35,128 nucleotides of DNA from a virus: the IMG/VR virus record IMGVR_UViG_3300048997_000093, positions 1 to 35,128 of that record; one strand, given 5' to 3'. Position numbers and translations under genes: made by a program. This document shows positions 5,005 through 35,128 of this stretch, piece by piece; position 1 is the stretch's first letter; each line of letters begins with the position of its first letter. The notes below the pieces were generated by a model. It saw only the letters and a program-made list of their open reading frames with translations, was not told the DNA's origin and did not search any database.

Positions 5005-5843
5005 CGCGTCTCCAGTGAGGTGCGCACCACCAGCCACGTCGCAGGCCCCTTGGCCTTGTCCGGCTCGTGCAGCACCGGCGGTGACCATGACACGTAGCGT
5101 GCGTCATCCCCGGCGAGCAGCCCCACCCAGCCCGAGCGGGCGTCGGGCTGATGGAACGCGTCGATCATCGGCTTGAGCGTCGCCACCAGGTTGTCGACGT
5201 CGCGGAGCTGGCGGGTCTTGGGCCGGTAGTGCATCTCGATGTGCGCCTGCTCCAGCGGCGGGATCTCGGCGTCGATCAGTGCCCGGCGGGTGAGCGCCTT
5301 GATCCGCTCGACCTTGGAGGCATGCGCCGGCCAGGACAGGCGGTCATTCAGCGAGAGCGGGGGCTTGCCGTCCTTGAATGGCACCTCGACGCGCCACTCG
5401 GCGATCCGCTCGCGGGGGTCGGGCTGCCCGGTCAGATGCGCTAGGGCGATCCAGTACGGGCAGGGCTCGCCGTTGTGCCGACGGGCGTGGGCCGCGCTGT
5501 GGCCGAGCGCGGCGTGCGGGCACAGCGCCAGCAGCGCATCGGCATGCTCGGCCTGCCTGGTCAGCGCCTGCTGGACGATCTGCTGCGTCACGGCCGGGTA
5601 GGCGCCGTCGAACTTCGTGCCGAACAGGTCGGCGTCGAACGTGGGCGCCGGAATCGGCGTGATGCCCAGCTTGGCCTGGCGTTGATCCTCAGTGGCGTGC
5701 GCGAGCACGTCGGCGACGGACTGCTGCGCCTGCTCGGCACTTTGGAGATACGCGCCCGGCGGCCAGCTCTCGGCCGCGCGCATCTCCTGCTCGTCCAGGA
5801 TGTGCTGCACGTGCTCTGGCGGTATCCAGCCGGGGGCGCTCAC
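5001..5843 (-). CDS. RusA-like Holliday junction resolvase with N-terminal extension
   Basis: 280 residues from GTG at 5843 (GTGA overlap). The C-terminal part from about 160 matches RusA endonucleases: LSLNDRLSWPAHASK, then HYRPKTRQLRDVDNLVATLK with D215, D217 and N218 followed by K224 and D228, and a later AGDDARYV with D246/D247. RusA resolves four-way junctions as an acidic-residue dimer. RusA alone is about 120 residues; the N-terminal 150 residues are an extra helical region with CPHAAL and CPYW cysteines and no recognised domain. It probably resolves branched DNA before packaging. Confidence 0.85.
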   Translation of the reverse strand: MSAPGWIPPEHVQHILDEQEMRAAESWPPGAYLQSAEQAQQSVADVLAHATEDQRQAKLGITPIPAPTFDADLFGTKFDGAYPAVTQQIVQQALTRQAEHADALLALCPHAALGHSAAHARRHNGEPCPYWIALAHLTGQPDPRERIAEWRVEVPFKDGKPPLSLNDRLSWPAHASKVERIKALTRRALIDAEIPPLEQAHIEMHYRPKTRQLRDVDNLVATLKPMIDAFHQPDARSGWVGLLAGDDARYVSWSPPVLHEPDKAKGPATWLVVRTSLETR

Positions 5844-14541: not shown

Positions 14542-14910
14542 TCAGGTCTCCTCGGGTGGGACCGACGGCATCGCGTCGTCGGGTCGGTAGGTGAAGCCGG
14601 CGCCCTGATCCACGATCACCTCGACCTCGACCAGGGCCGGCGTGAACTGGTAGAACACGCCGAACAGGTGCTCGGCGATCGCGGCGCCCGAGGCGGGGAA
14701 CGGCAGCGTGTCGGACAGGTTCACCCCGTCCATGTAGGTGGCCAGCCAGTAGTCGATCTCGGCCGTCGGCGAGATGTCGCCGCTACTGGCGTCGAAGCGG
14801 GCCGTGACGTCGAAGGTGTGCCCGTGCAGGCGCCCCTCGGGGTCGGTGCGCGGCCGGTTATCCAGGGCGTGGATCGCGGCGAACCGGGCGTGGTGGGACA
14901 GGATGATCAA
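14542..14910 (-). CDS. Divergent QueD / pyruvoyl-tetrahydropterin synthase-like protein
   Basis: 122 residues from TTG at 14910, chosen because GAGGAGGAG lies six bases upstream. The N-terminus ILSHHARFAAIHALDN then EGRLHGHTFDVTARFD matches the T-fold of QueD/PTPS enzymes, with zinc ligands H14, H29 and H31. QueD makes carboxy-tetrahydropterin for 7-deazaguanine synthesis. The usual Cys just before LHGH is Pro-Glu here, and the LDH catalytic His is not seen, so the standard reaction is doubtful. IAEHLFGVFYQFTPALVEVE follows the family's late helix and strand. No queC, queE or TGT-like gene is in the window. Confidence 0.6.
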   Translation of the reverse strand: MIILSHHARFAAIHALDNRPRTDPEGRLHGHTFDVTARFDASSGDISPTAEIDYWLATYMDGVNLSDTLPFPASGAAIAEHLFGVFYQFTPALVEVEVIVDQGAGFTYRPDDAMPSVPPEET

Positions 14911-14933
14911 GGCGCTCCTCCTCGGAATGATCA

Positions 14934-15019
14934 CCGGCCCGGGCAACGGAGGCTAGTCAGCATCGCCCGGGCCGGCATGGGGTGGCCGGGCCAGCCCCCG
15001 GGGGATTGGGCTGGCCCGG
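14934..15019 (-). terminator. Tandem perfect stem-loops
   Basis: Two hairpins follow the gene ending at 15025. One pairs 14986-14997 (ccgggccagccc) with 15008-15019 perfectly over 12 bp. The other pairs 14934-14944 (ccggcccgggc) with 14965-14975 over 11 bp. They should end transcription from the 15541-15600 promoter, though the QueD-like operon just beyond has no obvious promoter, so some read-through is likely. Confidence 0.7.
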
Positions 15020-15024
15020 TCCGT

Positions 15025-15534
15025 CTACAGCCGCTCGTTCCAGGTCTCGACGGCGAACGGGTCGTACGCGGGCTCGTCCGGGATGACCAGCGTGTCCAGC
15101 TCGCCGCTGTCGCCCTCGACGACGTCCAGCACCTCGTAGCCCAGGCGGGTCGCCTCGGCGACGGCGGCCTCAGCGTCGGTCGCCTCGATCGACGGGCCGT
15201 GGCTACCGCCGACGCTCATCGTGGTGAAGGTCCGGACGGCGGGCTCGTCGGCGAAGTGGCCGGCCGCGCCGCAGTGCTTGCAGACGGTCAGGGCCTCGGC
15301 GTGCGCGGCCTCGATCAGCTCCAGCTCCTCGCTCGTGCGGAACGGGTGCCGGTTGTCGCGGGCCTTCACTCCGGCCTCGACGAGCTGGGTGATGTCGCGT
15401 CCGCAGTCGCGGCACACGCCGTGCCGGTGCCCGTACTGGGCGTCGGGCTGCGAGATGTCCCAGCCGGTGCTGACGCTGCGGAGGTAGGTCAGCTCGTGGC
15501 GGTGGGTGAAGGCGGTGGACGCGAGTGTCGTCAT
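15025..15534 (-). CDS. Zinc-ribbon hypothetical protein
   Basis: 169 residues from ATG at 15534 with AAGGGAG upstream. CRDCGRDI (about residue 41) and CKHCGAAGHF (about 84) form a zinc ribbon; the C-terminal 70 residues are acidic. It is a one-gene unit: own promoter at 15541-15600 and terminator at 14934-15019. Its placement between the modification operon and the QueD-like gene may be functional, but this is not shown. Confidence 0.65.
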   Translation of the reverse strand: MTTLASTAFTHRHELTYLRSVSTGWDISQPDAQYGHRHGVCRDCGRDITQLVEAGVKARDNRHPFRTSEELELIEAAHAEALTVCKHCGAAGHFADEPAVRTFTTMSVGGSHGPSIEATDAEAAVAEATRLGYEVLDVVEGDSGELDTLVIPDEPAYDPFAVETWNERL

Positions 15535-15540
15535 GGCGTG

Positions 15541-15600
15541 CTCCCTTGGGTGGGGTGTCTGTCCAACCCAGACAATAGTCTGGTCTGTCAATCTCGGCAA
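15541..15600 (-). promoter_or_regulatory. Promoter with 17-bp operator and leader
   Basis: Minus strand: -35 TTGCCG (15595-15600), exactly 17 bases, -10 TATTGT (15572-15577). Operator GTCTGTCCAACCCAGAC at 15557-15573; a second palindrome CCAGAC-AATA-GTCTGG (15568-15583) spans the -10. CCCCACCCAAGGGAG (15541-15555) gives the ribosome binding site for 15534. The -35 overlaps the end of the kinase gene. Confidence 0.8.
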
Positions 15601-16148
15601 AGCAGGCTCACCGGCACTCCCCGCCTGCGGAGCAGCGCAAACACGGTCGCGGCCATCGGCTCCGCGCCGTGATGGGACAGGTCGAGCTGCGCGGCCCCGA
15701 ACCGGGCCGCTAGACGCGCTGCCTTGCTGCCCCGGCCCTGCACCCAGGACTCGTTCTGGAGGCGCGTCCCGGCCTCCTCGGCGCGGTGGCGGCGGCGCCA
15801 GGCCACAGTGCCAGGGTTGGCCACGGCGTGGAGCAGGTGCAGCCGGTAGCCGGCGGACTCGGCGACGTCGAAGAACTTCGCGTAGGCCAGCCGGTCGCCC
15901 TCGGCGAGCACCAGCGGCGCCGGGATCGAGCTGATCCAGGCTTCGGCCTCTCGGGCGATCGACATGCCCAGGGTGTCGGTGCCGCCGAACGGCTCCCGCT
16001 TGCGGCCGGGCATGACCAGCTCGCCGCGTCGCAAGTGCGGGATCGGGGTGAAGTGCTCGGCGAAGCCGTCGAGCCCGCTGACCATCGCGGTGACGAGCGT
16101 CGTCTTGCCGACGCCCGGCGGGCCGATCAGGTAGACCAGGTCAGCCAC
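15588..16148 (-). CDS. P-loop kinase, candidate 5-hydroxymethylpyrimidine DNA kinase
   Basis: 186 residues from GTG at 16148 (8-base overlap with HIT). Walker A GPPGVGKT at 9-16; a FGGTDTLGMS motif at 54-63; VLAEGDRL near 80-87 as a Walker B-like strand. Family knowledge: thymidine hypermodification clusters of phages such as ViI and M6 encode a P-loop kinase that phosphorylates 5-hydroxymethyluracil in DNA. Here it is last in an operon with a TET/JBP oxygenase and an aGPT-PPlase-like protein, which supports that role. It could be another small-molecule kinase. Confidence 0.65.
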   Translation of the reverse strand: MADLVYLIGPPGVGKTTLVTAMVSGLDGFAEHFTPIPHLRRGELVMPGRKREPFGGTDTLGMSIAREAEAWISSIPAPLVLAEGDRLAYAKFFDVAESAGYRLHLLHAVANPGTVAWRRRHRAEEAGTRLQNESWVQGRGSKAARLAARFGAAQLDLSHHGAEPMAATVFALLRRRGVPVSLLCRD

Positions 16149-16494
16149 GATGGGCCTCCGTCCAGGGCAGCAGCAGCCCGTCGCCCGGTCGGCGCGGCAG
16201 GTAGTGGACGTGCAGATGCAGCACCGTCTGCGTGGCCGCCGGACCGGCGGACGTGATCAGGTTGAAGTCATCGCGATAGCCCGGGTTGTTCTCCCAGTCC
16301 TTCGCCCATGACGAGGCCAGCGCCGTCGCCGAGTGCAGCCCCCCGAGGTCACGGGCGTCCACGACGTGGCGCACCGGCAGGAACAGGCGGTGTCCTGGCA
16401 CTCTCGGCTTCAACGGCACGAACGACACCGCGCCGTAGCCGGACACGTCGAACTCGTCGCGCTCGATCCGCCCACAGAACACGCACTCAGCCAC
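16141..16494 (-). CDS. HIT-family hydrolase
   Basis: 117 residues from GTG at 16494. It starts CVFCGRI, continues AVSFVPLKPRVPGHRLFLP, and ends with the histidine triad H93-L-H95-V-H97 in QTVLHLHVHYLPR. HIT proteins hydrolyse nucleoside phosphoramidates, dinucleoside polyphosphates or aminoacyl adenylates. It lies inside the modification operon with 8-base overlaps on both sides, so it may clear a nucleotide by-product there; that link is inference. Confidence 0.85.
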   Translation of the reverse strand: MAECVFCGRIERDEFDVSGYGAVSFVPLKPRVPGHRLFLPVRHVVDARDLGGLHSATALASSWAKDWENNPGYRDDFNLITSAGPAATQTVLHLHVHYLPRRPGDGLLLPWTEAHRG

Positions 16495-16873
16495 GGCGGT
16501 CTCCTCTCAGCGCGAGCCGATTGATGAGCAGGTGGACGCTGTTGTCGGCGATGATCCCCAGCCAGACGTGCAGCCACGGCTGGGACTCGATGTAGCCCGA
16601 GCGGCCGGCGTCGGCCAGCTCGTAGCGGTAGGCCCGGGGCGCGGCTTGGTTCTTGGCCCACACCAGGTAGCGGGCCAGACGCCAGCGGTCGATCGCGAAG
16701 TGCGTCCCGGCGATCACCGCCAGCCGGGCCGGCGAGCGTGTCAGCGGCACGAAGCACGCCGCGTAGGTCAGGGCGTGCGCGGCGGCCGGGCCATGGGCGC
16801 GCAACTTGCCCTCGGCCATCCAGGTCGACTGCACGACGTAGTCGCCGAAAAGGTGCGCGATCAGCTCATCCAC
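16487..16873 (-). CDS. DUF3307 membrane protein
   Basis: 128 residues from GTG at 16873. LIAHLFGDYVVQSTWMAEGK opens the protein, then HALTYAACFVPL, AVIAGTHFAIDRWRLARYLV, and a C-terminal WLGIIADNSVHLLINRLAL: the DUF3307 pattern, with several hydrophobic helices and conserved H/D residues. Function is unknown; the family occurs in phages and bacteria. Why a membrane protein lies within a DNA modification operon is unclear. Confidence 0.75.
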   Translation of the reverse strand: MDELIAHLFGDYVVQSTWMAEGKLRAHGPAAAHALTYAACFVPLTRSPARLAVIAGTHFAIDRWRLARYLVWAKNQAAPRAYRYELADAGRSGYIESQPWLHVWLGIIADNSVHLLINRLALRGDRRG

Positions 16874-17729
16874 GGCGGCGCTCCACTTCCACGAGGCGAT
16901 CGACGATCTCCGGCGCCCAGCGGACGCCGGAGTGCCACAGCGGCGGCACCGAGCGCATGTCCAGCGTCCCGGTGTCGCCCTCAACGGGGACCGGACGCCA
17001 GCCCTGCGTCAGCTCGCCGACGCCGGTGACCGGGACGCTAGGCCACAGCTCGCGCCACGCGTCCAGCCAGCGCTCCAGGTGCTTGTGGGCATCCAGCGGC
17101 TTGGCGACCTGCTGCGGGACCAGCGACGAGCCGGCCCACCACCAGCCCGGCTTGGTCGGGATGACGTAGGCGTACACGATCTGGAACCGGCCGCGTCGGG
17201 AGTACAGCGCCGGGCGGTGCGCCAGGCCAGCCAGCTCGGGCGGTAGATCGAGCTGCACCTGGCAGCTCCAGCCCCACCGGAAGCCGGCGCAGCGTTCGGT
17301 GAACCCGTGGGTGCGGATCACCCGTGCGCCACGCGGCGCGGCCTCGCGGCGGCGGCCGGCGAACTGGAGGCGCGCCGAGTCGACGATGAACGGCACGTCC
17401 ACGGCGATCGCGGACAGCTTCGCCACCCGGAACGGTCCAAGGTCGAGCTGGTCGTAGTGGCCCTCGTGCGGCGGGTGCTTGTGCTTGTAGACGTACGCGA
17501 CCGGGGTGACGGTGCGGGGCGGGAATAGCTTGGATTCGTACCAGTTCCACCACAGGTCCAGGTTGCGCCGCGACCGGGCATCCCCGGCGGGATAGACCAT
17601 GCCGGTGCTCGCGCGCCATGCCTGGACTGGGGAGTTGATCTCGTTCCAGGTGAACGGGATGCCGGCGCGTTCCAGGGCAAGCGCGGTCGCCGAGCCGAAC
17701 CACCCCATGCCCTCCAGGTGAAGCGTCAC
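16866..17729 (-). CDS. DAAO/ThiO-like flavin-dependent oxidoreductase or lyase
   Basis: 287 residues from GTG at 17729 (GTGA overlap). Residues 3-30 form a Rossmann dinucleotide-binding unit: GMGWFG (G7, G9, G12) and a Glu at 30 ending the second strand. It is followed by ASTGMVYPAGDARSRRNLDL, in keeping with FAD enzymes acting on amino acids. A late GELTQGWRPVPVEGDTG segment resembles the second FAD contact of this superfamily. In phage thymidine hypermodification, flavin-dependent lyases trim the installed amino acid. That is the likely job here given its neighbours. Confidence 0.65.
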   Translation of the reverse strand: MTLHLEGMGWFGSATALALERAGIPFTWNEINSPVQAWRASTGMVYPAGDARSRRNLDLWWNWYESKLFPPRTVTPVAYVYKHKHPPHEGHYDQLDLGPFRVAKLSAIAVDVPFIVDSARLQFAGRRREAAPRGARVIRTHGFTERCAGFRWGWSCQVQLDLPPELAGLAHRPALYSRRGRFQIVYAYVIPTKPGWWWAGSSLVPQQVAKPLDAHKHLERWLDAWRELWPSVPVTGVGELTQGWRPVPVEGDTGTLDMRSVPPLWHSGVRWAPEIVDRLVEVERRRG

Positions 17730-17926
17730 GGCCGGCTCAGCTCCTTGAGCTTGATCCGCTGGATGATGACCGTGTGGCCGGTCTCGTCGTGGTGGGCGTA
17801 GCCCTGTCGGACCGTCAGCAGGCCACCGACGCCCATCACCGTCGAGCGGCCCTCGGGGCAGTCGCGGCACATGGCGTTCTCCTCGACGGTCTGGGTGCGG
17901 ACGCGCCGGCCCTTGCGGTCGATCAT
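17726..17926 (-). CDS. Small Cys-containing hypothetical protein
   Basis: 66 residues from ATG at 17926 (ATGA overlap with the aGPT-PPlase-like gene). A basic start (DRKGRRVRT), CRDCPEG, then RQGYAHHDETGHTVIIQRIK. The CxxC and clustered His could bind a metal. Not recognised. It is embedded in the modification operon, so it may be an accessory component. Confidence 0.55.
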   Translation of the reverse strand: MIDRKGRRVRTQTVEENAMCRDCPEGRSTVMGVGGLLTVRQGYAHHDETGHTVIIQRIKLKELSRP

Positions 17927-18858
17927 GCTGCGCTCACGCCGTCGAGCCACCACAGCAGCCGGCCCCGGTCGCGGTACAGCCGGTTCAACTCCTTGCGCAC
18001 CCCCGGCCAGCCGGAGACCTCGCCGAGCAGGTGCGGCTCGAAGGCGCGCCCACGGGCGATCAGCGCCACCCCGTCGAGGCGGGTCGGGGACTTGCGGAGC
18101 TGATCCAGCATCTGGTCGACGTCATGGCCGACGTAGTAGCGGCCCTCGGTGACGGCGTGCCAGTCGCAGAGCGTCGTCTCGGCCGTCTCCAGCGTGGCCG
18201 GCAGCCCGGCCTCATGCAGCGCGGCGAGGTGGGCCAGGGACAGCTTGTCCAGCTCGGCCAGGGTGTCCGGGTGGTTGCCAGTCGGCACGTCCGGGTACAG
18301 CACCGCGAGGCCGTGGCGGGGGCCGGTGCTGTTCGCATGGCCCATGTCCGGCGCGGCCAGCGGGAAGCCGTTGACGGCGGCCAGCATCTCGCCGGTCTTG
18401 AAAGCGGCCCACCGGCCGTTGCCGTGGACCCGGGTCACCGCACTCGACACGGCCGACCAGCGGTCCTGGCTGGAGCCCGTGCCATACGCGGCGCCACCCA
18501 GCCAAGGGACGATGCCGCCGTAGGAGTCGATCGTGTCGACCAGCGAGCGCAGATGCGCCCGGAGCTGGCGGTGGTCGCGATGCGCCCGGCGCTCCACCCC
18601 CGTCGGCAGCACCAGCTCAGCCGGGGGCATCGCCACCTTCCCGTCGGTGGCCTCGAACGCGGCCAGCGCGCTCCCCAGGTGGTAGTAGGCGACGTGCAGG
18701 AACGTCAGCCACAGCCGGGCCTCACCGTCGAGATCCAGCAGCTCACCGACCTCACGCAGCACCGGGTAGACCGGGTCGACATCGCCCGTCTTGAGCTGCC
18801 AGTGGTGGAAGGTGCAGTAGTCGGCCCAGCCGGTGCCCTCCGTCCAGGAGCCGGTCAC
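17923..18858 (-). CDS. aGPT-PPlase (amino-acid:DNA transferase)-like protein
   Basis: 311 residues, all-helical. Motifs: WLTFLHVAYYHLGSALAAFE (50-69), WAAFKTGEMLAAV (150-162), APDMGHANSTGPRHGLAVLY (169-188), TLCDWHAVTEGRYYVGHDVD (229-248). These match, from memory, the alpha-glutamyl/putrescinyl thymine pyrophosphorylase superfamily, whose phage members replace the phosphate on a hydroxymethyluracil in DNA with an amino acid or amine. Its co-operonic kinase, flavoenzyme and TET/JBP oxygenase strengthen the call. The exact clade and amino acid cannot be read. Confidence 0.7.
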   Translation of the reverse strand: MTGSWTEGTGWADYCTFHHWQLKTGDVDPVYPVLREVGELLDLDGEARLWLTFLHVAYYHLGSALAAFEATDGKVAMPPAELVLPTGVERRAHRDHRQLRAHLRSLVDTIDSYGGIVPWLGGAAYGTGSSQDRWSAVSSAVTRVHGNGRWAAFKTGEMLAAVNGFPLAAPDMGHANSTGPRHGLAVLYPDVPTGNHPDTLAELDKLSLAHLAALHEAGLPATLETAETTLCDWHAVTEGRYYVGHDVDQMLDQLRKSPTRLDGVALIARGRAFEPHLLGEVSGWPGVRKELNRLYRDRGRLLWWLDGVSAA

Positions 18859-19049
18859 GGCAGCAGCTCCAGGTCATCGGGGCGGGTCGCCTTGGCGCCC
18901 ATGCCGCCGACGTAGATCACGAACACGTAGCGGTCGTTGACCGAGGAGATCCGCCCGTCCTCGGTGCGGGCGGTCGTGTTCGCGCCGGGCGGGTGGTAGC
19001 GGACCTTCGCGCCGATCTTGGCCTTAGCCTGCGCCAGCGTCATCGCCAT
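18855..19049 (-). CDS. Small SH3/KOW-like protein
   Basis: 64 residues. LAQAKAKIGAKVRYHPPG, then EDGRISSVNDRYVFVIYVGG and KATRPDDLELLP give a five-strand SH3-like barrel outline. ATG at 19049 has GGGGAG five bases upstream; an ATG at 19043 is also possible. Such modules bind nucleic acid or partner proteins. In the modification operon, between the oxygenase and the transferase, it may help target DNA. Confidence 0.65.
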   Translation of the reverse strand: MAMTLAQAKAKIGAKVRYHPPGANTTARTEDGRISSVNDRYVFVIYVGGMGAKATRPDDLELLP

Positions 19050-19915
19050 GACTTCTCCCCACTCACGACAGCCCGTTGGTTCTCCTCACGCTCGGTGCGC
19101 TTGGCCTGGCCCTGGGCCAGCTCGGCGGCGAACGTGGCGCAGTCCTTCATCCCCCGCAGGGCGTAGTAGACGATCGAGAACCGGTAGCCGCGCGGGACGC
19201 CTGCTGCTGCTGGGCGGATCCGGGTCAGTGGTGTCACCCCATGCACCAGGCGGAAGCCGTTGAAGAACACCACGTAGCCGTTGCGGCACGACGTGGTCAG
19301 CCCGTACTCGGGCAGATGCAGCCCCCCGCCCGAGACGCCCGAGCGGATCACCGGCATCGCCGACCAGGCGTCGAAGTTCATGCCGTCGCGGTGGTACGGG
19401 AGCTGCGCGGTGTGATTGACCACGCCGGAGGTCCAGTGGCTGTGCGGGGCCATCCGCCAGTCGTCGTCGATCTCGCCGATGGTCAGCACGTCCCGCTCGG
19501 CGATGGCCGGCGCGAAGCTGCGGAGCATGTCCCCGAGGTGCAGCGACAGCATCGCCAGGGTGTTGTGCACCTCGGGCATGTCGCGGGCGAGCGAGGTGAT
19601 CCGGCACGAGTCGTGCAGCATCGTCGGCCGGCGCGGAGCCATCCCGAACGTCCGAGACAGGGAGCGGAGCTTGCCGGCGCGGCCGAGCCCGGTGAACCCG
19701 TCGATCGCCAGCACCGCTTGGGTGAGCGCGCCGACCCAGCCGTCGGGCAGCGGCAGGTAGGCGAACACGGGCTCGCCCAGGTCGGGGTCGGTCACGATGG
19801 TGGGCTCCACGAGCTGCATCGCGGCGCGGTCATCAGCGACCAGCTCCCCGACGAGCCCGTCGGCCTGCTCGCGGGTGAGCAGGCGTCGCCGCTCCAGCCG
19901 GGTGGGCTCAGGCAT
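19040..19915 (-). CDS. TET/JBP-family Fe(II)/2-oxoglutarate oxygenase
   Basis: 291 residues. The double-stranded beta-helix core shows H175-x-D177 in LPYHRDGMNF, GGGLHLPEYG (197-205), the second Fe ligand H225 in LVHGVTPL, and R245 in GYRFSIVYY that binds 2-oxoglutarate. The WTSGVVNHTA segment before HxD and LPEYG after it fit the TET/JBP group of phages. These enzymes hydroxylate the methyl of 5-methylcytosine or thymine in DNA. No DNA methyltransferase is recognised in the window, so thymine is plausible but unproven. The start at 19915 overlaps the ParB-like gene by 8 bases. Confidence 0.85.
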   Translation of the reverse strand: MPEPTRLERRRLLTREQADGLVGELVADDRAAMQLVEPTIVTDPDLGEPVFAYLPLPDGWVGALTQAVLAIDGFTGLGRAGKLRSLSRTFGMAPRRPTMLHDSCRITSLARDMPEVHNTLAMLSLHLGDMLRSFAPAIAERDVLTIGEIDDDWRMAPHSHWTSGVVNHTAQLPYHRDGMNFDAWSAMPVIRSGVSGGGLHLPEYGLTTSCRNGYVVFFNGFRLVHGVTPLTRIRPAAAGVPRGYRFSIVYYALRGMKDCATFAAELAQGQAKRTEREENQRAVVSGEKSWR

Positions 19916-20687
19916 CGGAGGGCTCCTCGGCCTGCTCGGGCTCAGCCTCGGGGTCGGTGAGCTGCCCGTCGCCCTCAGCTTGGCCAGCCGGCGGGGTCCG
20001 CCCCGACACGGCGGCCACCATCGCGATCAGCGCCTCCGCGTTGCTCGGCAGCTCGTGGGCGGTGCGGTAGTCGTTCAGCCGCTCCACCACCCACGCGAAC
20101 AGGTCGGTGGTGTACTCGAAGTACAGCGACCGGGTCGCCTTGCCCTCGTAGCGTTCGCCGAGCGCGGCCATGCCGGCGTGGGGCTGCTGGCCCGGGAATT
20201 GCTGCTCGCCGTACTGGCTGCCCCCGGCCTCGGCCTTGGCGGCGGCGGCCAAGATCTCGTCCAGCTCCACCTGGTCGAAGCCGGCCGCGTCCAGCAGGGA
20301 GGCGTTGAACCCGTCGAGCTGTTCGGCCAGCACCGCCTGCTCCCACTCGGCCAGTTCACCGGAGCGGTTGTCGGCGATGGCGTAGGCGCGGGCCTCCTCG
20401 GTGGTGCCCGGGAACCGGGTCACGTGGACCTGCGCGTACGGGGCCGGCTGGTCCTGTTCGGCCGCTTCGGCGTTCAGCTCGCGCATCACCTCGACGGTGC
20501 CGTTGCCGGCGATCGCCATGTACCGGCCGTTCACCACCAGCGGCTTGCGCTGCCCGAACCGGGACAGGCTGGCCCGGATGACGTCCAGGTTGCGGCGGTT
20601 GTGCTTGCGGGCGTTGTCCGGGTCGGTCTTGATCTTCTCGATGGGCACGGTCTCGACGGGTAACGCGGTGCGGTCAGGCTTCGGCAT
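19908..20687 (-). CDS. ParB-like nuclease-domain protein
   Basis: 259 residues from ATG at 20687. The N-terminal 110 residues match the ParB/sulfiredoxin-like domain: VPIEKIKTDPDNARKHNRRN, IRASLSRFGQRKPLVVNGRY, AIAGNGTVEVM (replacing the classic GERR box) and YAIADNRSGELAEW. The middle holds an extra conserved-looking block (YFEYTTDLFAWVVERLNDYR) and the C-terminus is acidic and disordered. Genes of this type often neighbour TET/JBP oxygenases in phages, perhaps to choose DNA sites. No parA or parS is seen, so a partition role is unlikely. Confidence 0.8.
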   Translation of the reverse strand: MPKPDRTALPVETVPIEKIKTDPDNARKHNRRNLDVIRASLSRFGQRKPLVVNGRYMAIAGNGTVEVMRELNAEAAEQDQPAPYAQVHVTRFPGTTEEARAYAIADNRSGELAEWEQAVLAEQLDGFNASLLDAAGFDQVELDEILAAAAKAEAGGSQYGEQQFPGQQPHAGMAALGERYEGKATRSLYFEYTTDLFAWVVERLNDYRTAHELPSNAEALIAMVAAVSGRTPPAGQAEGDGQLTDPEAEPEQAEEPSDA

Positions 20688-21558: not shown

Positions 21559-22737
21559 TCACGCGCTCGCTGCGACGAACTCCATCGCCTCGATGGCCTT
21601 GGCGTCCATCTCGTGGGCGACGTCGGCGTCGTCGATCGTCTGGCTGTAGGAGGTGAACGCCTGCGCGACGCCACCGGCGGTGACCTGCCCGCCCTTGATG
21701 AAGTGGTCCAGGATGCCGTCGATGTGCGACTGGGCGAACCCGAGCCGCTTCACCACGGCGGTGATGGTGTCCTGGGCCTTGCCGACCGGAGCGCCGGCCT
21801 TGGCCTCCAGGCGGGCCACGGCGCCGTTCAGGTACTCCGGCGACAGGAAGCTGGCGACCGCGTCGCGGGTCTTGGCCACGACCAGCTCGACGTTCTTCGT
21901 CGCGGTGTCCTGGCTCCAGCGGATGACGCCGTCGTCGAGCTTCGAGCCGACGTGCACCGCGCGGACCGCGTCGCGGGTCACGGTCATGCCGTTGGTGCAG
22001 ACCTGCACCACGATCTGCGGGGCCAGGCTCCAGGCGCCGTCGCCGACCTCGGAGTTGCGCAGCACCAGCCCGGCCGAGACCACGGGCAGCTTGTCGCCCG
22101 AGTCGCCGGTGAACGGGGACCGGTAGCCCCTGAGCAGTTCGGGGGCCAGCGCGGTGATCTCCGGCGAGCGGAGCTGCACGTACATGCGGCGGTCGGTCAG
22201 GTCGCAGCGGCCGACCTCGACCTTGACCCCGGCCTGCTGCACGCCGTCGAGCACCGCGACCAGGGCGTCGAGGTTGTCCATGACGCCGTAGCCGTTGGAC
22301 AGCAGCGCCCGGACCACGCCGGTGCCGCCGTCGTCGTCGCGGAACGCGCGGACCAGGAACGAGCGGGCGTCGGGCTCGGCGATGACCTCGGTGCCGGCGT
22401 CGAGGCGGGTGACCGACCGGCCGTGGAGCCAGCCGTTGACGTTGGCGTCGTACAGGTCGGGGCGGGTCTCGCGGAGCTTGCGGACGTAGGCCAGCGGGAT
22501 GCCGAGCTTGTCGGCGATGCCCTCGTCGAACACGACGGTCGGGCGGTACACGCCGTCGGTGGTGGTGACCCCGTCAGGGGTGAGGATCTGCTCGGCGCCC
22601 CGGACGTGGATCAAGGCGTTGCGCGAGCGGAGCGCGGTCGCCGGGGCGACGACGTCGAGCTTGCGGGCGTGCTGGTCGCGGAGCAGGGCGACCATGTCGT
22701 CGAGCGTCGCGTTGCGGGTGGTGGTCTGGATCGTCAT
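21559..22737 (-). CDS. DUF932-domain protein
   Basis: 392 residues from ATG at 22737 with AAGGGAG upstream. Segments GIPLAYVRKLRETRPDLYDA, ALLSNGYGVMDNLDALVAVL, SEVGDGAWSLAPQIVVQVCT and NGMTVTRDAVRAVHVGSKLD match the DUF932 (phage/plasmid-like) family. The function is unknown; members accompany recombination and DNA repair genes on phages and plasmids. Well expressed by its look: strong leader, own promoter (22744-22807) and a hairpin after it. Confidence 0.8.
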   Translation of the reverse strand: MTIQTTTRNATLDDMVALLRDQHARKLDVVAPATALRSRNALIHVRGAEQILTPDGVTTTDGVYRPTVVFDEGIADKLGIPLAYVRKLRETRPDLYDANVNGWLHGRSVTRLDAGTEVIAEPDARSFLVRAFRDDDGGTGVVRALLSNGYGVMDNLDALVAVLDGVQQAGVKVEVGRCDLTDRRMYVQLRSPEITALAPELLRGYRSPFTGDSGDKLPVVSAGLVLRNSEVGDGAWSLAPQIVVQVCTNGMTVTRDAVRAVHVGSKLDDGVIRWSQDTATKNVELVVAKTRDAVASFLSPEYLNGAVARLEAKAGAPVGKAQDTITAVVKRLGFAQSHIDGILDHFIKGGQVTAGGVAQAFTSYSQTIDDADVAHEMDAKAIEAMEFVAASA

Positions 22738-22743
22738 TGCGGT

Positions 22744-22807
22744 CTCCCTTGGGTGGAAACGGTCTGGTCAAGTAAGACTATAGCCCGGACCCCAGACAGT
22801 TCCGCAA
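22744..22807 (-). promoter_or_regulatory. Promoter with 17-bp operator and leader
   Basis: Minus strand: -10 TATAGT (22777-22782), closest to consensus in the window, with -35 TTGCGG (22802-22807) at 19 bases. Operator GTCTGGTCAAGTAAGAC at 22762-22778. CCACCCAAGGGAG (22744-22756) is the start-associated leader for DUF932. Confidence 0.75.
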
Positions 22808-26744: not shown

Positions 26745-28005
26745 CGGGGTCATCGCCCAGGTCGGTCTGCCCGGCGTGCTCGGCCTCGAACCGCTCGGCC
26801 TCATACGCGGCGTCCAGAGCGGCCTCCTGGTCCGCGTCGGACAGCGCCGTGGCCTCCGGGCCGGCGGCAGGCGGTGCGGCCGGCCCGGGCTCGCTCGGGG
26901 CCGCCACCGGCGGGGTCCATGCCAGCGCCGCCTTGAGTTCATCGGTGGTGGCGTACTCGATCGGGATCGTGGCGTCGTGCTGGATGACCTTGAGCACCGA
27001 CGCGAGCTGAGAGCCGTGCTTGTCGGTTGCGGCGTCGCGCAGCCCCTTCCACAGGGCGGTCTGCCGGGCACGGGCGCGGTCGGCGCCCTGGTCGTCGACG
27101 GCGGCCTTGATGTTCTGGGCCGTGGTTCGCTCCTCGGGTGCCTGGCTGGCCTCGGCCGCGTCGGCGGCCTCCTCGGCTTCCATCTGCTCGGCCGTCGGCG
27201 GTTCGGTGCCGCCGGTGCCACCGGGCTCGCCGTTGAACTGGTCCAGCGCGTCGGGGGACAGGTCCACCCGGATCGATTCGTCGGAGGCGATGGCCTGCGC
27301 GAGCAGCGTCGACTTCGGCAGGAACTTGAACATCGCCCTGACGCAGGACTTGCGGGCCATCGCGTCGTAGTCCGTCGCCCACGGCGAGCGGGCGTTGCGC
27401 CCCGACTGGGACCGGAGCCGGATCGCCTCGACGTCATCGCGGCCCATCACGTGGAACACCCGGCCGCCGTTGGTCATCCGCGCGACCGCGTAGTACAGCA
27501 CCGGCTCACCCTTGTCGGCGTCGAACCGGGGCCGGTGGATCAGCTTGTCCTCCAGCCCGTACTCGATCTCGTAGTCCTCACCGGCGAAGATGGTGTGCGC
27601 CTTGATCTCGGCGACGAGCTGGGAGCGGTTGGCCAGCTCGATCATCCCCTGGTAGCCGAGAATCCACTGCGCCTCGTACACGTCGCGCTTGCTGTTGCGG
27701 AACGGCAGCACCCAGCCGTGCCCGAGCGCGGGCACGTTAGGTCGGAGCCCGAGCTGCGCGGCGGTCATCAGCGCCCCGTACAGGGTCGGCTTGGTGCAGC
27801 GGATCAGGTCCGGGACGTTGCGCACGGCGGTGATCGCGTCGCGGACGAGCTGGGTGGCCTCCATGCCGCGTGGCATCGCAAGCTGGAACTGCTCCTGCAT
27901 CAGCGACAGCTCGGCCTGGAGGTTGGCCACCCGGTCGATCTCCTTGCCGGGCTTGGGTAGTCCGGCGGCCTCGCGGGCGGCGTCGGAAGTGGTCGGTTCG
28001 GTCAT
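26728..28005 (-). CDS. recT: RecT-family single-strand annealing protein
   Basis: 425 residues from ATG at 28005 with AAGGGAG upstream. QLVRDAITAVRNVPDLIRCT, YGALMTAAQLGLRPNVPALG, GHGWVLPFRN, WILGYQGMIELANRS, HTIFAGEDYEIEYGLED and WATDYDAMARKSCVRAMFKF are the RecT core. RecT anneals complementary single strands during phage recombination. The core ends near 260; the long C-terminal tail (about 160 residues) is acidic, Ala/Glu-rich and probably disordered. The partner exonuclease is four genes upstream. Confidence 0.9.
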   Translation of the reverse strand: MTEPTTSDAAREAAGLPKPGKEIDRVANLQAELSLMQEQFQLAMPRGMEATQLVRDAITAVRNVPDLIRCTKPTLYGALMTAAQLGLRPNVPALGHGWVLPFRNSKRDVYEAQWILGYQGMIELANRSQLVAEIKAHTIFAGEDYEIEYGLEDKLIHRPRFDADKGEPVLYYAVARMTNGGRVFHVMGRDDVEAIRLRSQSGRNARSPWATDYDAMARKSCVRAMFKFLPKSTLLAQAIASDESIRVDLSPDALDQFNGEPGGTGGTEPPTAEQMEAEEAADAAEASQAPEERTTAQNIKAAVDDQGADRARARQTALWKGLRDAATDKHGSQLASVLKVIQHDATIPIEYATTDELKAALAWTPPVAAPSEPGPAAPPAAGPEATALSDADQEAALDAAYEAERFEAEHAGQTDLGDDPDGDNS

Positions 28006-28301
28006 CGGTGTCTCCCTTGGGTTGGGGCTTTCTTCACGACGAGCTTGCCGGGGATCCGGGTCTCGTCAACGGTCAGCGGCCGGTATGCCGCTGAGCCGTA
28101 GATCACGCGGGGGTGGATGAGGATGTGGTCGCGGATCAGGATCTCGATCAGGTCCGCCCAGTACGGGCCGAGCGGCGGCGCGGCAGTCGCGAGCTGCGCG
28201 GCCGGGCGCACCCCGGCTGACTTGGGCCGCCAGCCCTGCGGTGACCAGACGATCAGTCCCCGGCGGGCGGCCTCGACCAGCATCTGCATGTCAGCGGTCA
28301 C
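28002..28301 (-). CDS. Hypothetical protein
   Basis: 99 residues from GTG at 28301 (GTGA overlap). ADMQMLVEAARRGLIVWSPQ is helical; then APPLGPYWADLIEILIRDHI, LIHPRVIYGSAAYRPLTVDE. Between exonuclease and recT. No family is recognised. Confidence 0.55.
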   Translation of the reverse strand: MTADMQMLVEAARRGLIVWSPQGWRPKSAGVRPAAQLATAAPPLGPYWADLIEILIRDHILIHPRVIYGSAAYRPLTVDETRIPGKLVVKKAPTQGRHR

Positions 28302-28910: not shown

Positions 28911-29962
28911 GCCCAGGTCCAGGTGCGGCGGTAGCGAAGCTCGCCCAGCGCCTCGGGGTGTGCCTCGATCAGCGCGGCCAGCCCCTTGTTGTCGATCTTG
29001 CGCGCCGGGCGGGAGTAGTCCTCGAACCACTCGGGGTGCCGTCGCTGCCACGCCTGGTCCGCGCCGTCGATCTGCTTGCCCGGCTTCCACGTCGCGATCG
29101 GCGTGCCGTCCGGCCACGCCAGCTCGCTCGCGTTGCCGGCCCGGGTCTGGAGCAGCGCGACCAGCCCGTCGTACTCGGCCTTGGCGGCGGCCAGCTCGAC
29201 GTAGAGCTTGCGCGCCCGGCGCACCGCGTCGGCGTCCTCATCGGGCAACAACGCGACCGCGTCGACCGGGTCTCGGTAGAGCTGCTTGGGCAGCTCAGTC
29301 GACTTCTCCGACGGCGCCGGGGGGACGTCGGCCACCACGTGGGTGGACCACCAGTGGTCGGCCCGGGTGAACATCGCCCGGATCAGCTCCTCGTCGCGGT
29401 CCATCCGCCGGTGCAGCGGCCGGAACCGGGGGCCGAGCGCCACGAAGTGGATGTGCCCTCGTCCGGTGACGGCGAGCTGCCACTGGCCCTGGAACTGGAA
29501 CCCGGTCGGGACGGTGTCGTTGCCGTCGTCGTCGAACCACTCGTCGAAGCTGGACTGCACCTTGGCCTCGATCAGGCACTTGCCGGCGGGGCAGATCGAC
29601 AGGGAGTCGACCGTGGCCCCGCCCTGCGGGAACACCCGGGAGCGCATCAGGCCCTGCCGGCGGGTGGCGACCGGGAACGGCGCCTGCCGGTCGGCCCAGA
29701 ACTTGATGATCTCCCGCTCGAACGCCCGGCCCCGGGCCATCGACTCGTTCTCCAGCTCCTCATCGAGCCGGCCTGTCTTGTCGGCCCACAGACCGAATTC
29801 GTCCTTGTAGCCGTGGCCGAACAGCACCGCGACGTCGGAGGCGCCGAGTAGCTTGCGGCGCTCGGCGCGCCACACGTCCAGGTCGACGTCCACGGAGCAG
29901 ACGAGCGTGCCTCCTGGGCAGGACCAGGGCCGGGCGATGCCGGCCAGATCAGGATGCGTCAT
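28907..29962 (-). CDS. YqaJ/lambda-exonuclease-type recombination nuclease
   Basis: 351 residues from ATG at 29962 with AAGGGAG upstream. RRKLLGASDVAVLFGHGYKD (36-55), ARGRAFEREIIKFWA, then TVDSL with D119, LIEAKV with E132 and K134, and FQFQGQWQLAVTGRGHIHFV (155-174) are the YqaJ-type PD-(D/E)xK nuclease motifs. It degrades one strand from double-strand ends to supply the RecT substrate. The C-terminal third is helical and aromatic. Functions with recT in phage recombination. Confidence 0.85.
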   Translation of the reverse strand: MTHPDLAGIARPWSCPGGTLVCSVDVDLDVWRAERRKLLGASDVAVLFGHGYKDEFGLWADKTGRLDEELENESMARGRAFEREIIKFWADRQAPFPVATRRQGLMRSRVFPQGGATVDSLSICPAGKCLIEAKVQSSFDEWFDDDGNDTVPTGFQFQGQWQLAVTGRGHIHFVALGPRFRPLHRRMDRDEELIRAMFTRADHWWSTHVVADVPPAPSEKSTELPKQLYRDPVDAVALLPDEDADAVRRARKLYVELAAAKAEYDGLVALLQTRAGNASELAWPDGTPIATWKPGKQIDGADQAWQRRHPEWFEDYSRPARKIDNKGLAALIEAHPEALGELRYRRTWTWA

Positions 29963-29968
29963 TGCGGT

Positions 29969-30028
29969 CTCCCTTGGGGTGGGGTTGTGCTCCGAGTATG
30001 GAGCGGGGGGCAGACAGTTTTGCTGCCC
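29969..30028 (-). promoter_or_regulatory. Promoter region for exonuclease operon
   Basis: The leader CCCCACCCCAAGGGAG (29969-29984) matches those of other operons. The 17-bp operator is replaced by GGGCAG-N9-CTGCCC (30008-30028, perfect 6-bp arms). CATACT on the minus strand is a possible -10, also inside a GCTCC/GGAGC inverted repeat. No good -35 is seen. Control may differ from the other operons. Confidence 0.5.
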
Positions 30029-31814: not shown

Positions 31815-32053
31815 CACAGCTCACCGGCCCGGAGCTGGGCGTGGACGTCGGCGAGCTTGACGCCGGTGAGCAGCGAGATGGCCTGCTCCCAGCCGATCAT
31901 CATCCCGGCGGCGAACATGTCCTGCTCGCGCGGCAGCAGCCCGGCGCGCTTCTCGGCGCGGTGCCAGCGAGCGGCCAGCTCCTCGACGGCGGCGAGGCTC
32001 TGCTGCGCGGCGTCGGCCAGCGGCTGGAGCTGCGCCCATGCCTGTGCGTTCAT
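31814..32053 (-). CDS. Small helical protein, first gene of the operon
   Basis: 79 residues from ATG at 32053 with AAGGGAG upstream. AQAWAQLQPLADAAQQSLAA, then AEKRAGLLPREQDMFAAGMM, IGWEQAISLLTGVKLADVHA. All helical; the second half resembles an actinophage protein seen near early promoters, with function unknown. Confidence 0.55.
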   Translation of the reverse strand: MNAQAWAQLQPLADAAQQSLAAVEELAARWHRAEKRAGLLPREQDMFAAGMMIGWEQAISLLTGVKLADVHAQLRAGEL

Positions 32054-32059
32054 GCGGAT

Positions 32060-32118
32060 CTCCCTTGGGTGGGGGTCTGGTCAAGCAAGACAATAGTCTG
32101 GGCGGGCAAGTCCAGCAA
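32060..32118 (-). promoter_or_regulatory. Promoter with 17-bp operator and leader
   Basis: Minus strand: -35 TTGCTG (32113-32118), exactly 17 bases, -10 TATTGT (32090-32095). Operator GTCTGGTCAAGCAAGAC at 32075-32091. CCCCACCCAAGGGAG (32060-32074) leads to the 32053 start. This is the best example of the whole set and probably a main early leftward promoter. Confidence 0.8.
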
Positions 32119-32148
32119 TGCGGGCGCGTGAGCCCGCTGCGAGCCGAC

Positions 32149-32209
32149 TTGACGAGGCGATCTTGGCACCGCCAGTCTGTGGCTCCCAGACACGTCCCCA
32201 CCCAGGAGA
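32149..32209 (+). promoter_or_regulatory. Plus-strand operator and probable promoter for the HNH gene
   Basis: -35 TTGACG (32149-32154) then 17 bases to a poor -10 (32172-32177, CCAGTC). Operator GTCTGTGGCTCCCAGAC at 32175-32191, exactly 100 bases from the operator at 32075. CCCCACCCAGGAG (32197-32209) is the leader with ribosome binding site for 32214. The weak -10 suggests activation or tight control. Confidence 0.55.
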
Positions 32210-32213
32210 CCCG

Positions 32214-32657
32214 ATGCTCGCGACACTCGACCGGCTGACAGGGCGCGCCGAGCGCTCCCCTGCCCCGGCCCACGTGCCAGCCGTGCTCGGGCCGTGCCTG
32301 ATCTGGACGGGCTGCCTCGACGGCGCCGGCTACGGCCAGATCACCGTCGAGGGCCGCGACCAGCGCACCCACCGGGTGGCCTGGATCGAGCGCCACGGAC
32401 CGATCCCATTCGGGCTGATGGTGCTGCACCGCTGCGACGTCCGGCCCTGCATCGCCGACTGGCACCTTTGGCTGGGCACGCGCGCCGACAATATGGCCGA
32501 CATGGTGGCCAAGAGCCGCGCCGGCAGCGGGCACGGCGCCGAAACCCACTGCCCTGCTGGGCATCTCTACGACGAGGCCAACACTTACCGATATCCCGTC
32601 ACGGGGTATCGGTCTTGCCGGCAATGCCGCCGAGACGCTGCCCGGGCCGGGGGGTGA
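32214..32657 (+). CDS. HNH homing-type endonuclease
   Basis: 147 residues from ATG at 32214. The core CLIWTGCLDGAGYGQITVEG, THRVAWIERHGPIPFGLMVL, HRCDVRPCIADWHLWLGTRA, DNMADMVAKSR is an HNH nuclease with its zinc-type Cys pairs; the tail HCPAGHLYDEANTYRYPVTG and CRQCRRD adds a second zinc finger. A common phage accessory nuclease that may be a mobile homing enzyme. It reads opposite to the surrounding genes. Confidence 0.85.
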   Translation: MLATLDRLTGRAERSPAPAHVPAVLGPCLIWTGCLDGAGYGQITVEGRDQRTHRVAWIERHGPIPFGLMVLHRCDVRPCIADWHLWLGTRADNMADMVAKSRAGSGHGAETHCPAGHLYDEANTYRYPVTGYRSCRQCRRDAARAGG

Positions 32658-32714
32658 TTTCGGACCCCACCCAAGGACTCGCGACATCACCCGCAACCCA
32701 ACCCGGGCAGCGTC
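32634..32714. repeat. Nested inverted repeat between HNH and secreted-protein genes
   Basis: gacgctgcccggg (32634-32646) faces cccgggcagcgtc (32702-32714) perfectly over 13 bp; inside, gggtgat (32652-32658) faces atcaccc (32686-32692). The central loop carries CCCCACCCAAGGA, the start-associated motif, but with no start codon at useful spacing. It overlaps the HNH stop and may form a long RNA hairpin controlling the next gene. Confidence 0.55.
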
Positions 32715-32753
32715 CCAAGCATAGGGGCGCGCCCACCATCGAGAGGAACCACC

Positions 32754-33761
32754 ATGAAGATCCGAGCCCTGCTCGCGGGCATCGCGCTCGCGACGGGGGT
32801 GGCGGCCACAGCCGGTCTCGCACATGCCGGCGCCTGGACTGCCAGCCTCAATGGCGAAGGCTCCTGCGAGCCCGCGCCGCGCACCGCCACCGACACGTGG
32901 GTCGTGACCTGGGGTTACACCAACACCGAGGACAGCCCCGACCACGCGTTCATCACTGCCGAGTCCGACCAGCACTCCGGTGATCAGCAGCTCATCGGCC
33001 ACGAACTGGCCAGCGGCCAGGGCGGATTCCTCGTCGTCTCGTACCCGGCGAGCGCGGCCAGCGACACCCTGTCGGTGACGTTCACCTGGAAGAACGCGAA
33101 GGGCCACGTCGACGACCACAAGACGGTCACCGCGACCGTGCACCAGCCCAAGGGCTGCGACGTGTACGTCCCGCCGACCGTGCCCGAGCCGGGCTGGACG
33201 CAGCAGGTCTGCGACGTCGACCACGGCGGCATCGCCACCCCGGCGAGCTACACCACCACGGCAGTGGCCGGGGTGCACTACGACGTCACCGACGACGCCG
33301 GGGCGCACTCCAACGTGCCGGCCGGTACGCACACGGTGCCGTTCCTGAATCAGCAGGACACCACCGTCTACGTGCAGGCGTGGGATGACACCCAGGGCGG
33401 CCTGATCCACCAGTGGACCCACGTGTTCAGCTACGCCACCTGCCCGAAGCCGGTGACCAGCACGCCGCCACCCCCGCCGTCATCGTCCAGCTCGAACGTG
33501 CCCCCGCCAGTGACCAGCTCCAGCCACACGCCGGTGCACAGCCAGCCGAAGTCCACTGCTGCCAAGCATGTCGCCGTCTCGACGTCGAGCGCCCCCGCGC
33601 CGGCCCCGAGCACGTCGAGCAGCCCCGCAGCAGCGTTGGCCTCCACCGGCACCAGCTACCCGGCCGGCAAGGCGGCCCTGATCGGGCTCGCAGCCGTCCT
33701 GGCCGGTCTCGGCCTGCTCACCGGCGGGTGGTTCATGACCCGCACCCGGCGCAGCCACTAG
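32754..33761 (+). CDS. Secreted, sortase-anchored surface protein
   Basis: 335 residues from ATG with GAGAGGAACC upstream. A signal peptide (KIRALLAGIALATGVAATAG, cleavage expected after AHA at about 25); a beta-rich region to about residue 225 with WTASLNGEGSC and WVVTWGYTNTEDSPDHAFIT; a Pro/Ser/Thr stalk (about 225-290); then LASTG at 295-299 (LPxTG-like), a hydrophobic helix and TRTRRSH. It should be fixed to the host wall by sortase. Such a protein could alter phage adsorption or protect the lysogen. Confidence 0.85.
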   Translation: MKIRALLAGIALATGVAATAGLAHAGAWTASLNGEGSCEPAPRTATDTWVVTWGYTNTEDSPDHAFITAESDQHSGDQQLIGHELASGQGGFLVVSYPASAASDTLSVTFTWKNAKGHVDDHKTVTATVHQPKGCDVYVPPTVPEPGWTQQVCDVDHGGIATPASYTTTAVAGVHYDVTDDAGAHSNVPAGTHTVPFLNQQDTTVYVQAWDDTQGGLIHQWTHVFSYATCPKPVTSTPPPPPSSSSSNVPPPVTSSSHTPVHSQPKSTAAKHVAVSTSSAPAPAPSTSSSPAAALASTGTSYPAGKAALIGLAAVLAGLGLLTGGWFMTRTRRSH

Positions 33762-33786
33762 TCGATCTGGCCTCCCTTGGAAGGGC

Positions 33787-33820
33787 AGCGGCCCCGCACC
33801 GTAATGGGTGCGGGGCCGCT
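33787..33820 (+). terminator. Strong hairpin terminator
   Basis: agcggccccgcacc (33787-33800) pairs perfectly with ggtgcggggccgct (33807-33820) over 14 bp around a 6-base loop, followed by gtcgtttcccc. It ends the plus-strand unit and faces the convergent holin gene. The rest of 33762-33967 shows no gene. Confidence 0.8.
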
Positions 33821-33967
33821 GTCGTTTCCCCAAGGTTGACGCCCGGTCAGGATACCGGCGCCGATCCAGGCGGGCCGCCCCGGCTGCTCGGCCAGCCCAG
33901 GCGACCCCGTGCGCCCCACCATCATGCGGGGCCATCGGGCGCTTGTCCGAGACGCGCCAATCGGTAG

Positions 33968-34312
33968 TCAGGTCGGCGGCGCGGTGGTGATCACCATAGC
34001 TTGCCCGTCGGCCGTCGGCGTAGCGGTAATCGTCGCCGACGGCGCCACGTAGATCGGCTTCTGCGGTGAGCCGATCAGCCACCCGAGCTGGGGCCACTTG
34101 TGCTCCAGCACCCGCGCGAGCAGCCACCACAGATAGGCCAGCACCAGCCCGAACAGTGCCGAGAGGATCTGCTCGGCACGGGTGGTGTCAATGCCCAGCC
34201 CGGACAGCAGAGCCGGCACGACGGGCAGCGACAGCAGCCAGCCGACGATCATCGGGACGCCGGTGCGCAGGGCCGAGGCGATCAGGTTGTTGCGGACGAA
34301 GCCGTCGAGCAC
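33968..34312 (-). CDS. Holin
   Basis: 114 residues from GTG at 34312 with GGGAGG upstream. Two hydrophobic helices: SALRTGVPMIVGWLLSLPVV (about 13-32) and ILSALFGLVLAYLWWLLARV (about 49-68), joined by a short loop; the C-terminal third is soluble and Thr-rich. Size, topology and place beside the endolysin fit a holin, which opens the cell membrane at lysis. The family is not fixed. Confidence 0.7.
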   Translation of the reverse strand: MLDGFVRNNLIASALRTGVPMIVGWLLSLPVVPALLSGLGIDTTRAEQILSALFGLVLAYLWWLLARVLEHKWPQLGWLIGSPQKPIYVAPSATITATPTADGQAMVITTAPPT

Positions 34313-34324
34313 GGTGGGCCTCCC

Positions 34325-35128
34325 TCAGTAGGTGAACAGGTGAGCCCAGTCATCGGACCAGACCTGCCCGTACAGCGACGTCGACGCGGCGTAGTGGGCG
34401 TGCTGCCAGCGGGCGACCGCGTCGTAGGTGGGCTGCTCGAACAGCCCGTCGGCCCAGCCGTCGGCGGGGTTGCGGATGCCGGGGACGTAGCCGAGGGTGA
34501 TCAGCCGCTGCTGGATCGCCTTCACGTCCGGCCGTTCGTTGGCGTAGTACCCGCCGTGGCTGACGGCGGGTCCGCTGATCAGCCCGAAGTAGTTGCCCGG
34601 CTTCATGTAGGAGGGCCACGCCCGGTGCAGCGTCGCGTGCGGCGGTGGCTTCACCGGCGGTGGCTTCACGATCGGCGCGCCTCCAGCGGCCTCCTGATGC
34701 GAGCCCAGCGGCCCGGAGATCAGCACGACGTCCTCGTCGACGCTGCCCAGCTTGGGCCACTGGTTGCCGGTCTGCCAGATGCAGGAGGTCAGCTTGTGCC
34801 CGCCCATCTTGGACAGCAGGAACTTCATCGCCGGGGCGAGCTGGCTGGCCGTGGGCTCCCACAAGTCCCAGGTGGTCACGGCCGGCGGGGCGCTGATGCC
34901 GAGATCGTGCAGGAGCTGCTTGGCGACCGACCACGACGACGCGCCAGGGATCCAACCGTGCTTCGTGCGCCCGGTCTTGGACAGGGCGACCACCAGCGGC
35001 AGCGGCCCGTAGAACCCGTCGGCGTGGTAGTAACCGCCCCAGATGCTGTTGGTCTCGTCGATGTACGCCTCGATGCCGCCGAGCATCGACGACTGGTAGG
35101 CGGTGTCGAGGTTCAGCATGATCGTCGA
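34325..35128 (-). CDS. Endolysin, C-terminal part
   Basis: The frame is open at the right edge, so the true start lies outside; the ATG at 35119 is probably internal. About 267 residues are visible. The first half resembles a TIM-barrel-type wall hydrolase (IMLNLDTAYQSSMLGGIEAY, then IWGGYYHADGFYGPLPLVVA). The end is a peptidoglycan-binding-like domain: ANERPDVKAIQQRLITLGYV, ADGLFEQPTYDAVARWQHAH. A Pro-rich linker (APIVKPPPVKPPP) separates them. Followed by the holin gene 12 bases downstream. Confidence 0.75.
   Translation of the reverse strand, partial: STIMLNLDTAYQSSMLGGIEAYIDETNSIWGGYYHADGFYGPLPLVVALSKTGRTKHGWIPGASSWSVAKQLLHDLGISAPPAVTTWDLWEPTASQLAPAMKFLLSKMGGHKLTSCIWQTGNQWPKLGSVDEDVVLISGPLGSHQEAAGGAPIVKPPPVKPPPHATLHRAWPSYMKPGNYFGLISGPAVSHGGYYANERPDVKAIQQRLITLGYVPGIRNPADGWADGLFEQPTYDAVARWQHAHYAASTSLYGQVWSDDWAHLFTY

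Follow-up and report, generated by a model that had tools for sequence, protein, structure and literature searches.

To our knowledge, phage-encoded proteins anchored by sortases are known, in the open-access literature, mainly from Firmicutes prophages such as the one carrying SasX. SasX of Staphylococcus aureus, which belongs to a phiSPbeta-like prophage, and the protein described here are both phage-encoded surface proteins of the sortase type, a likeness drawn by description. SasX has an LPXTG motif, a temperate phage as its carrier and a role in colonisation (PMC10232760), whereas the present protein has LAXTG, orphan ectodomains and a phage in which no lysogeny genes were seen. In Actinobacteria of soil and freshwater, class E sortases recognise LAXTG as their signal (PMC5148588), and substrates of these enzymes, e.g., the chaplins ChpA-C of Streptomyces coelicolor, share with our protein a signal peptide, the LAXTG motif, a hydrophobic segment, a positively charged tail and a high-GC, probably actinobacterial, setting. 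They differ from it in that our protein is phage-encoded and that its ectodomain, made up of two Ig-like domains, shows no sequence relationship to any of the families found.

Virulent phages are also known to make early surface exclusion proteins, of which Llp of phage T5 is an example (PMC9586334). Such proteins prevent secondary infection, as well as non-productive adsorption to fragments of lysed cells (PMC9586334). The likeness that we propose is that of a phage product made early and carried to the host surface by an export route that belongs to the host. However, Llp, a small lipoprotein of the outer membrane, jams FhuA, while the present protein lacks a lipobox, is Ig-like and is predicted to be bound covalently to peptidoglycan. 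Judged by its sequence features, it would be a sortase-type protein of the class E kind, and it may work like Llp even though it is no lipoprotein. Within the known kind of phage-encoded, wall-anchored surface proteins, this predicted one is set apart by its unusual class of signal, its orphan ectodomain and a carrier that appears to be lytic.

Architecture and predicted structure of the probable surface protein

The gene lies near the right end of the window, by which we mean the whole 35,128-nucleotide stretch of viral DNA analysed. The gene and its parts are as follows:

32754-33761, plus strand: gene of the predicted wall-anchored surface protein, 335 aa, an open reading frame with ATG start and TAG stop
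32754-32831, plus strand: signal peptide, residues 1-26, predicted cleavage between AHA and GA (hydropathy; kept in 4/4 orthologues)
32832-33161, plus strand: domain 1, residues 27-136, all-beta, with C38 and C135 invariant (orthologue alignment; AlphaFold strands, pLDDT about 46-70)
33162-33449, plus strand: domain 2, residues 137-232, predicted Ig-like beta sandwich, with C153 and C230 conserved (AlphaFold)
33450-33632, plus strand: stalk rich in Ser, Pro and Thr, residues about 233-293 (sequence)
33636-33758, plus strand: cell wall sorting signal, with LASTG at residues 295-299, a helix at about 307-326 and the basic tail TRTRRSH

The signal peptide consists of MKIR and a hydrophobic core, with a 19-residue Kyte-Doolittle peak of 1.88 at residue 5. 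No lipobox cysteine follows it, the first cysteine being C38, inside domain 1. About 205 residues form the exported domain between signal peptide and stalk. The C-terminal helix, at about residues 307-326, reaches a hydropathy of 1.99 and is also modelled by AlphaFold as a helix (307-326). When the sequence was shuffled 200,000 times with its composition preserved, an LA/LPxTG motif landed among the 55 C-terminal residues in 1,363 cases, and the full sorting signal (motif, hydrophobic stretch and basic tail) in none (0/200,000). Moreover, the sorting-signal test was applied to open frames of 60 codons or more, from the window and the related records searched, and picked out only the surface gene and its orthologues. 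The preliminary description, which had claimed for this gene a signal peptide, a stalk and the LASTG motif, followed by a membrane helix and basic residues at the end, is confirmed. Its prediction of covalent attachment to the wall is likewise well supported by inference, and the complete LAXTG signal points to the class E sortases of Actinobacteria.

AlphaFold, run on the whole protein with the 4-sequence alignment, returned an all-beta model that was poor overall (pLDDT 55.8) and good in the second domain; domain 2 alone reached a pLDDT of 85.8 and a pTM of 0.75. The ectodomain, which had earlier been singled out for structure prediction, is thereby modelled as two beta domains, the second of them Ig-like. 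In the PDB fold comparison, the nearest folds to domain 2 were the Ig-like repeats of the adhesin GhpA (TM about 0.6, E about 0.01), to which it has no sequence similarity, and none of the matches reached E <= 0.001. Domain 2 is predicted to have an Ig-like fold, which does not reveal its ligand. Among the viral fold matches, many were tail and minor structural proteins.

Searches by sequence gave nothing above chance in Pfam, NCBIfam, PHROGs or PDB sequences. No meaningful match was returned by tblastn of the whole protein against 50,697 phage records and 72,556 plasmids, nor by tblastn of each domain separately against the phage records up to E=10. GTDB genomes were scanned both with the protein alone and with the alignment; these scans, which start from exact peptide patterns and hence suit close relatives only, retrieved no relative. 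The protein also resembles no other protein of the window or of the related genome G002. Overall, the databases searched yielded no homologue of known function.

Orthologues and selection

Three related phages in IMG/VR carry the surface gene, with identities of 99% (L001), 89% (L002) and 59% (L003), and the gene is present in 4/4 related records when the window is included. Three of these four records are fragments, while G002, with 56.4 kb and 77-bp direct terminal repeats, looks complete. The signal peptide, C38, C135, C153, C230 and the block LASTGTSYPAGKA are kept in all orthologues; this block, the core of the sorting signal, is identical in 4/4, with LASTG invariant, while the stalk diverges and is the most variable part of the protein (36% identity to L003).

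Pairwise comparisons of the gene with its three relatives gave dN/dS values of 0.06, 0.29 and 0.52, and because of this range, sequence comparison indicates that the surface protein is maintained by purifying selection. Against L003, dN/dS was highest in domain 2 (0.85) and, among the mature parts, lowest in domain 1 (0.33). The faster divergence of domain 2 fits an interaction surface, a reading that is not specific to phage receptors. We also asked whether the protein as a whole evolves unusually fast, as in an arms race, and rejected this, since small genes elsewhere in these phages change equally fast.

A search of the wider viral neighbourhood, with the endolysin, the holin-like protein, RecT and the C-terminal segment as queries, led only to the same three records, one phage of 49% GC that has no more than part of the endolysin in common, and one more fragment; the open frames searched in the latter two had no comparable sorting signal.

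Genome setting and expression signals

Only two of the 89 called genes of G002 lie on the plus strand, namely the surface gene and an HNH gene. The surface gene is flanked by a leftward recombination and early block, which includes RecT (PF03837) and a YqaJ exonuclease (PF09588), and by a leftward pair of holin-like and endolysin genes. The features around it in the window are:

32140-32180, plus strand: promoter-like block, TTGACG (32149-32154), 18 nt, CAGTCT (32173-32178) (conservation)
32214-32657, plus strand: HNH endonuclease gene (PF13392, E=2e-9; phrog_826, E=4e-35)
32705-32734, plus strand: leader hairpin with AGCATA in its loop, upstream of the ribosome-binding site (few sequences)
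33787-33820, no strand: 14-bp perfect hairpin between the convergent surface and lysis genes (fold and conservation)
33968-34312, minus strand: small membrane protein, holin-like, with two hydrophobic stretches (hydropathy peaks 1.95 and 1.88; phrog_10742)
34325-35119, minus strand: endolysin with peptidoglycan-binding domain, a neighbour (PF01471, E=5e-7; phrog_14048)

The promoter-like block, with the pattern CGAGCCGACTTGACGA..CGATC......CCGCCA..CTGT, is conserved in 4/4 genomes; TTGACG and its flanks are identical in all of them, and positions of the spacer vary. The block occurs once in the window, where none would be expected, and an IMG/VR search for its core led to the three relatives alone. 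It is plausible that the block is a putative rightward promoter, diverging from a leftward early promoter on the minus strand (TTGCTG-17-TATTGT, 32089-32118). In 2/4 genomes, the HNH gene stands between this block and the surface gene. Its open frame is listed from 32118, and its likely start is the ATG at 32214, after CCCAGGAGA. The window and G002 have this gene, whereas G003 and G001, the latter near-identical to the window, lack it and have a short GC-rich inverted repeat at the site; because of that absence, the HNH gene is most readily seen as an independent insertion that lies between the putative promoter and the surface gene, outside the surface system. Leader hairpins, with stems that differ in sequence, were found in the window, L001 and L003, and in weaker form in L002, the loop AGCATA being invariant.

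The hairpin at 33787-33820 has a 79-nt fold of -53.5 kcal/mol (z -6.5) and is conserved in all relatives. A consensus scan found no intrinsic terminator at this place, and the hairpin lacks a clear U-run; from its position between convergent genes, it probably acts as a terminator for both sides. The surface gene had been placed earlier between early and lysis genes, on the opposite strand and with a terminator of its own: strand and place are as claimed, and the hairpin is conserved, though without a clear U-run. An Rfam match of the hairpin to Pxr was far below the gathering score, and was discarded as chance from a GC-rich hairpin. The corresponding hairpin of L002 (11039-11084) also matches window positions 33779-33825 when reverse-complemented (94%), as would be seen after an inversion of the loop.

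The holin-like gene sits downstream of the endolysin gene and is a neighbour of the surface unit, outside it. The 49%-GC phage (L011, 765-1589) shares the C-terminal part of the endolysin, at 57% identity, with the 71%-GC phage of the window, which suggests that distant phages have exchanged domains.

On the minus strand, a repeated element precedes gene starts, made up of a promoter-like TTGCNG-17-TATTGTC (32089-32118 and 15571-15600) and then CCCACCCAAGGGAGA just before the start codon; example sites are 15525-15607, 22721-22785, 27996-28027, 29953-29984 and 32044-32125. In addition, a probable DNA base hypermodification cluster was noticed at 14542-20687 of the window, also on the minus strand:

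19908-20687, minus strand: ParB-like protein
19040-19915, minus strand: Tet/JBP-type oxygenase (PF12851, below cut-off)
17923-18858, minus strand: amino acid:DNA transferase (PF18724, E=1e-21)
16866-17729, minus strand: protein without assignment
16141-16482, minus strand: HIT protein
15588-16148, minus strand: P-loop nucleotide kinase (PF18751, E=1e-26)
14542-14910, minus strand: PTPS-like protein

Host, proposed role and alternatives

The phage has a GC content of 71%, and many of its closest phages by terminase and RecT infect Gordonia, Microbacterium, Arthrobacter or Mycobacterium. Based on this content, this kinship and the LAXTG signal, the host is most likely actinobacterial. WhiB gave no host marker, as the candidate at 4537-5088 of the window (minus strand) scored 17.2 bits against PF02467, under the cut-off of 23.6, and was undetected by genome search. 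A sortase was detected in none of six phage records, and therefore a host enzyme would have to do the anchoring. Regarding lifestyle, no match to a tyrosine or serine integrase, phrog_1 or an HTH_3 repressor was obtained in any related record, the 56.4-kb G002 included. As the complete-looking relative is without integrase and HTH_3 repressor, the phage is probably virulent, with the surface protein acting within one infection, although these phages may have a plasmid-like or divergent lysogeny system.

We propose that the surface gene would be transcribed during infection from the phage's own rightward promoter, and that its product would be exported by means of its signal peptide. The two Ig-like domains would reach their fold outside the cell, each with a cysteine pair that presumably forms a disulfide. 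Given the complete LAXTG signal and the lack of a phage sortase, we infer that a host class E sortase would then cut between LAST and G and join the threonine to a wall precursor, leaving the two domains on a flexible stalk outside the peptidoglycan. Export and wall anchoring, as deduced from the sequence, appear very probable. The wall-bound protein would further mask or change a surface structure to which this or related phages adsorb; the outcome would be superinfection exclusion in infected cells, and progeny spared from binding to wall debris after lysis. This receptor-masking role is put forward tentatively. Superinfection exclusion or an altered host surface, which the preliminary description had named as possible, would still be the leading guess at function. 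The explanation as a whole, from expression at the time of infection through export and class E sortase anchoring to receptor masking, is a serious possibility that falls somewhat short of an even chance. Sortase anchoring must be fast to matter within a single lytic cycle.

The chief alternative to receptor masking is an adhesin-like role, in which the wall-anchored protein would make infected cells stick to neighbours or surfaces and progeny would reach new hosts. The GhpA adhesin repeats are the folds nearest to domain 2, and SasX, itself phage-encoded and wall-anchored, promotes intercellular aggregation (PMC10232760). However, the Ig-like likeness is generic at the values given above, the protein has only two domains on a short stalk, and no lysogeny genes were seen that would keep an adhesin on living cells, so that we regard this role as improbable. 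Another reading is that of the preliminary description, which had seen a moron expressed in the lysogen, i.e., a lysogenic-conversion gene altering the lysogen's surface. A separate opposite-strand unit with its own promoter-like block and hairpin would suit a moron, and prophage-encoded SasX is a precedent, but the gene occurs in all four related records and is thus no sporadic insertion, contrary to what is usually expected of morons. Expression in a lysogen likewise finds no support, as no integrase, phrog_1 or HTH_3 match was obtained in the four records, three of them fragments, and the moron reading is rather unlikely.

It would also be conceivable that the C-terminal helix merely holds the protein in the cell membrane, surface-exposed and non-covalent, since a membrane protein could be anchored by such a helix and basic tail, and the host sortase is a predicted one. 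Yet LASTG is correctly placed, its surroundings are invariant in four orthologues and the full signal has a very low chance of arising at random, which makes this quite unlikely. That the gene is a passenger captured from a host and without function for the phage would agree with its architecture, which is that of host surface proteins; we consider it very unlikely in view of purifying selection across 59-99% identity, the conserved promoter-like block, leader and hairpin, and the finding of no plasmid homologue and of no GTDB relative in scans seeded by exact peptide patterns. A structural part of the virion, as an Ig-like decoration or fibre, was rejected on export and sorting signals and on gene position, and is scarcely credible: Ig-like domains are common among phage structural proteins, in line with the many viral fold matches to such proteins, but a signal peptide and a sorting signal would be useless in a virion, and the gene stands apart from the structural module of G002, is read from the opposite strand, and has a product without similarity to other G002 or window proteins.

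Returning to receptor masking, its most far-reaching form would be that a virulent actinophage covers the infected cell, in the course of one lytic infection, with a covalent two-domain shield through the host class E sortase, blocking adsorption of competitors as well as of its own progeny. Such a shield, which we consider doubtful in this complete form, would belong to a family without a described member and would be the peptidoglycan-anchored counterpart of the lipoprotein exclusion factors known from phages of Gram-negative bacteria. Overall, the presence of a LAXTG protein in a phage that appears to be lytic, and in 4/4 related records, suggests that lytic phages are likewise able to commandeer the host sortase pathway, remodelling the cell surface during infection. 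If true, this would represent a simple route to superinfection exclusion in Gram-positive hosts, where few mechanisms are known.
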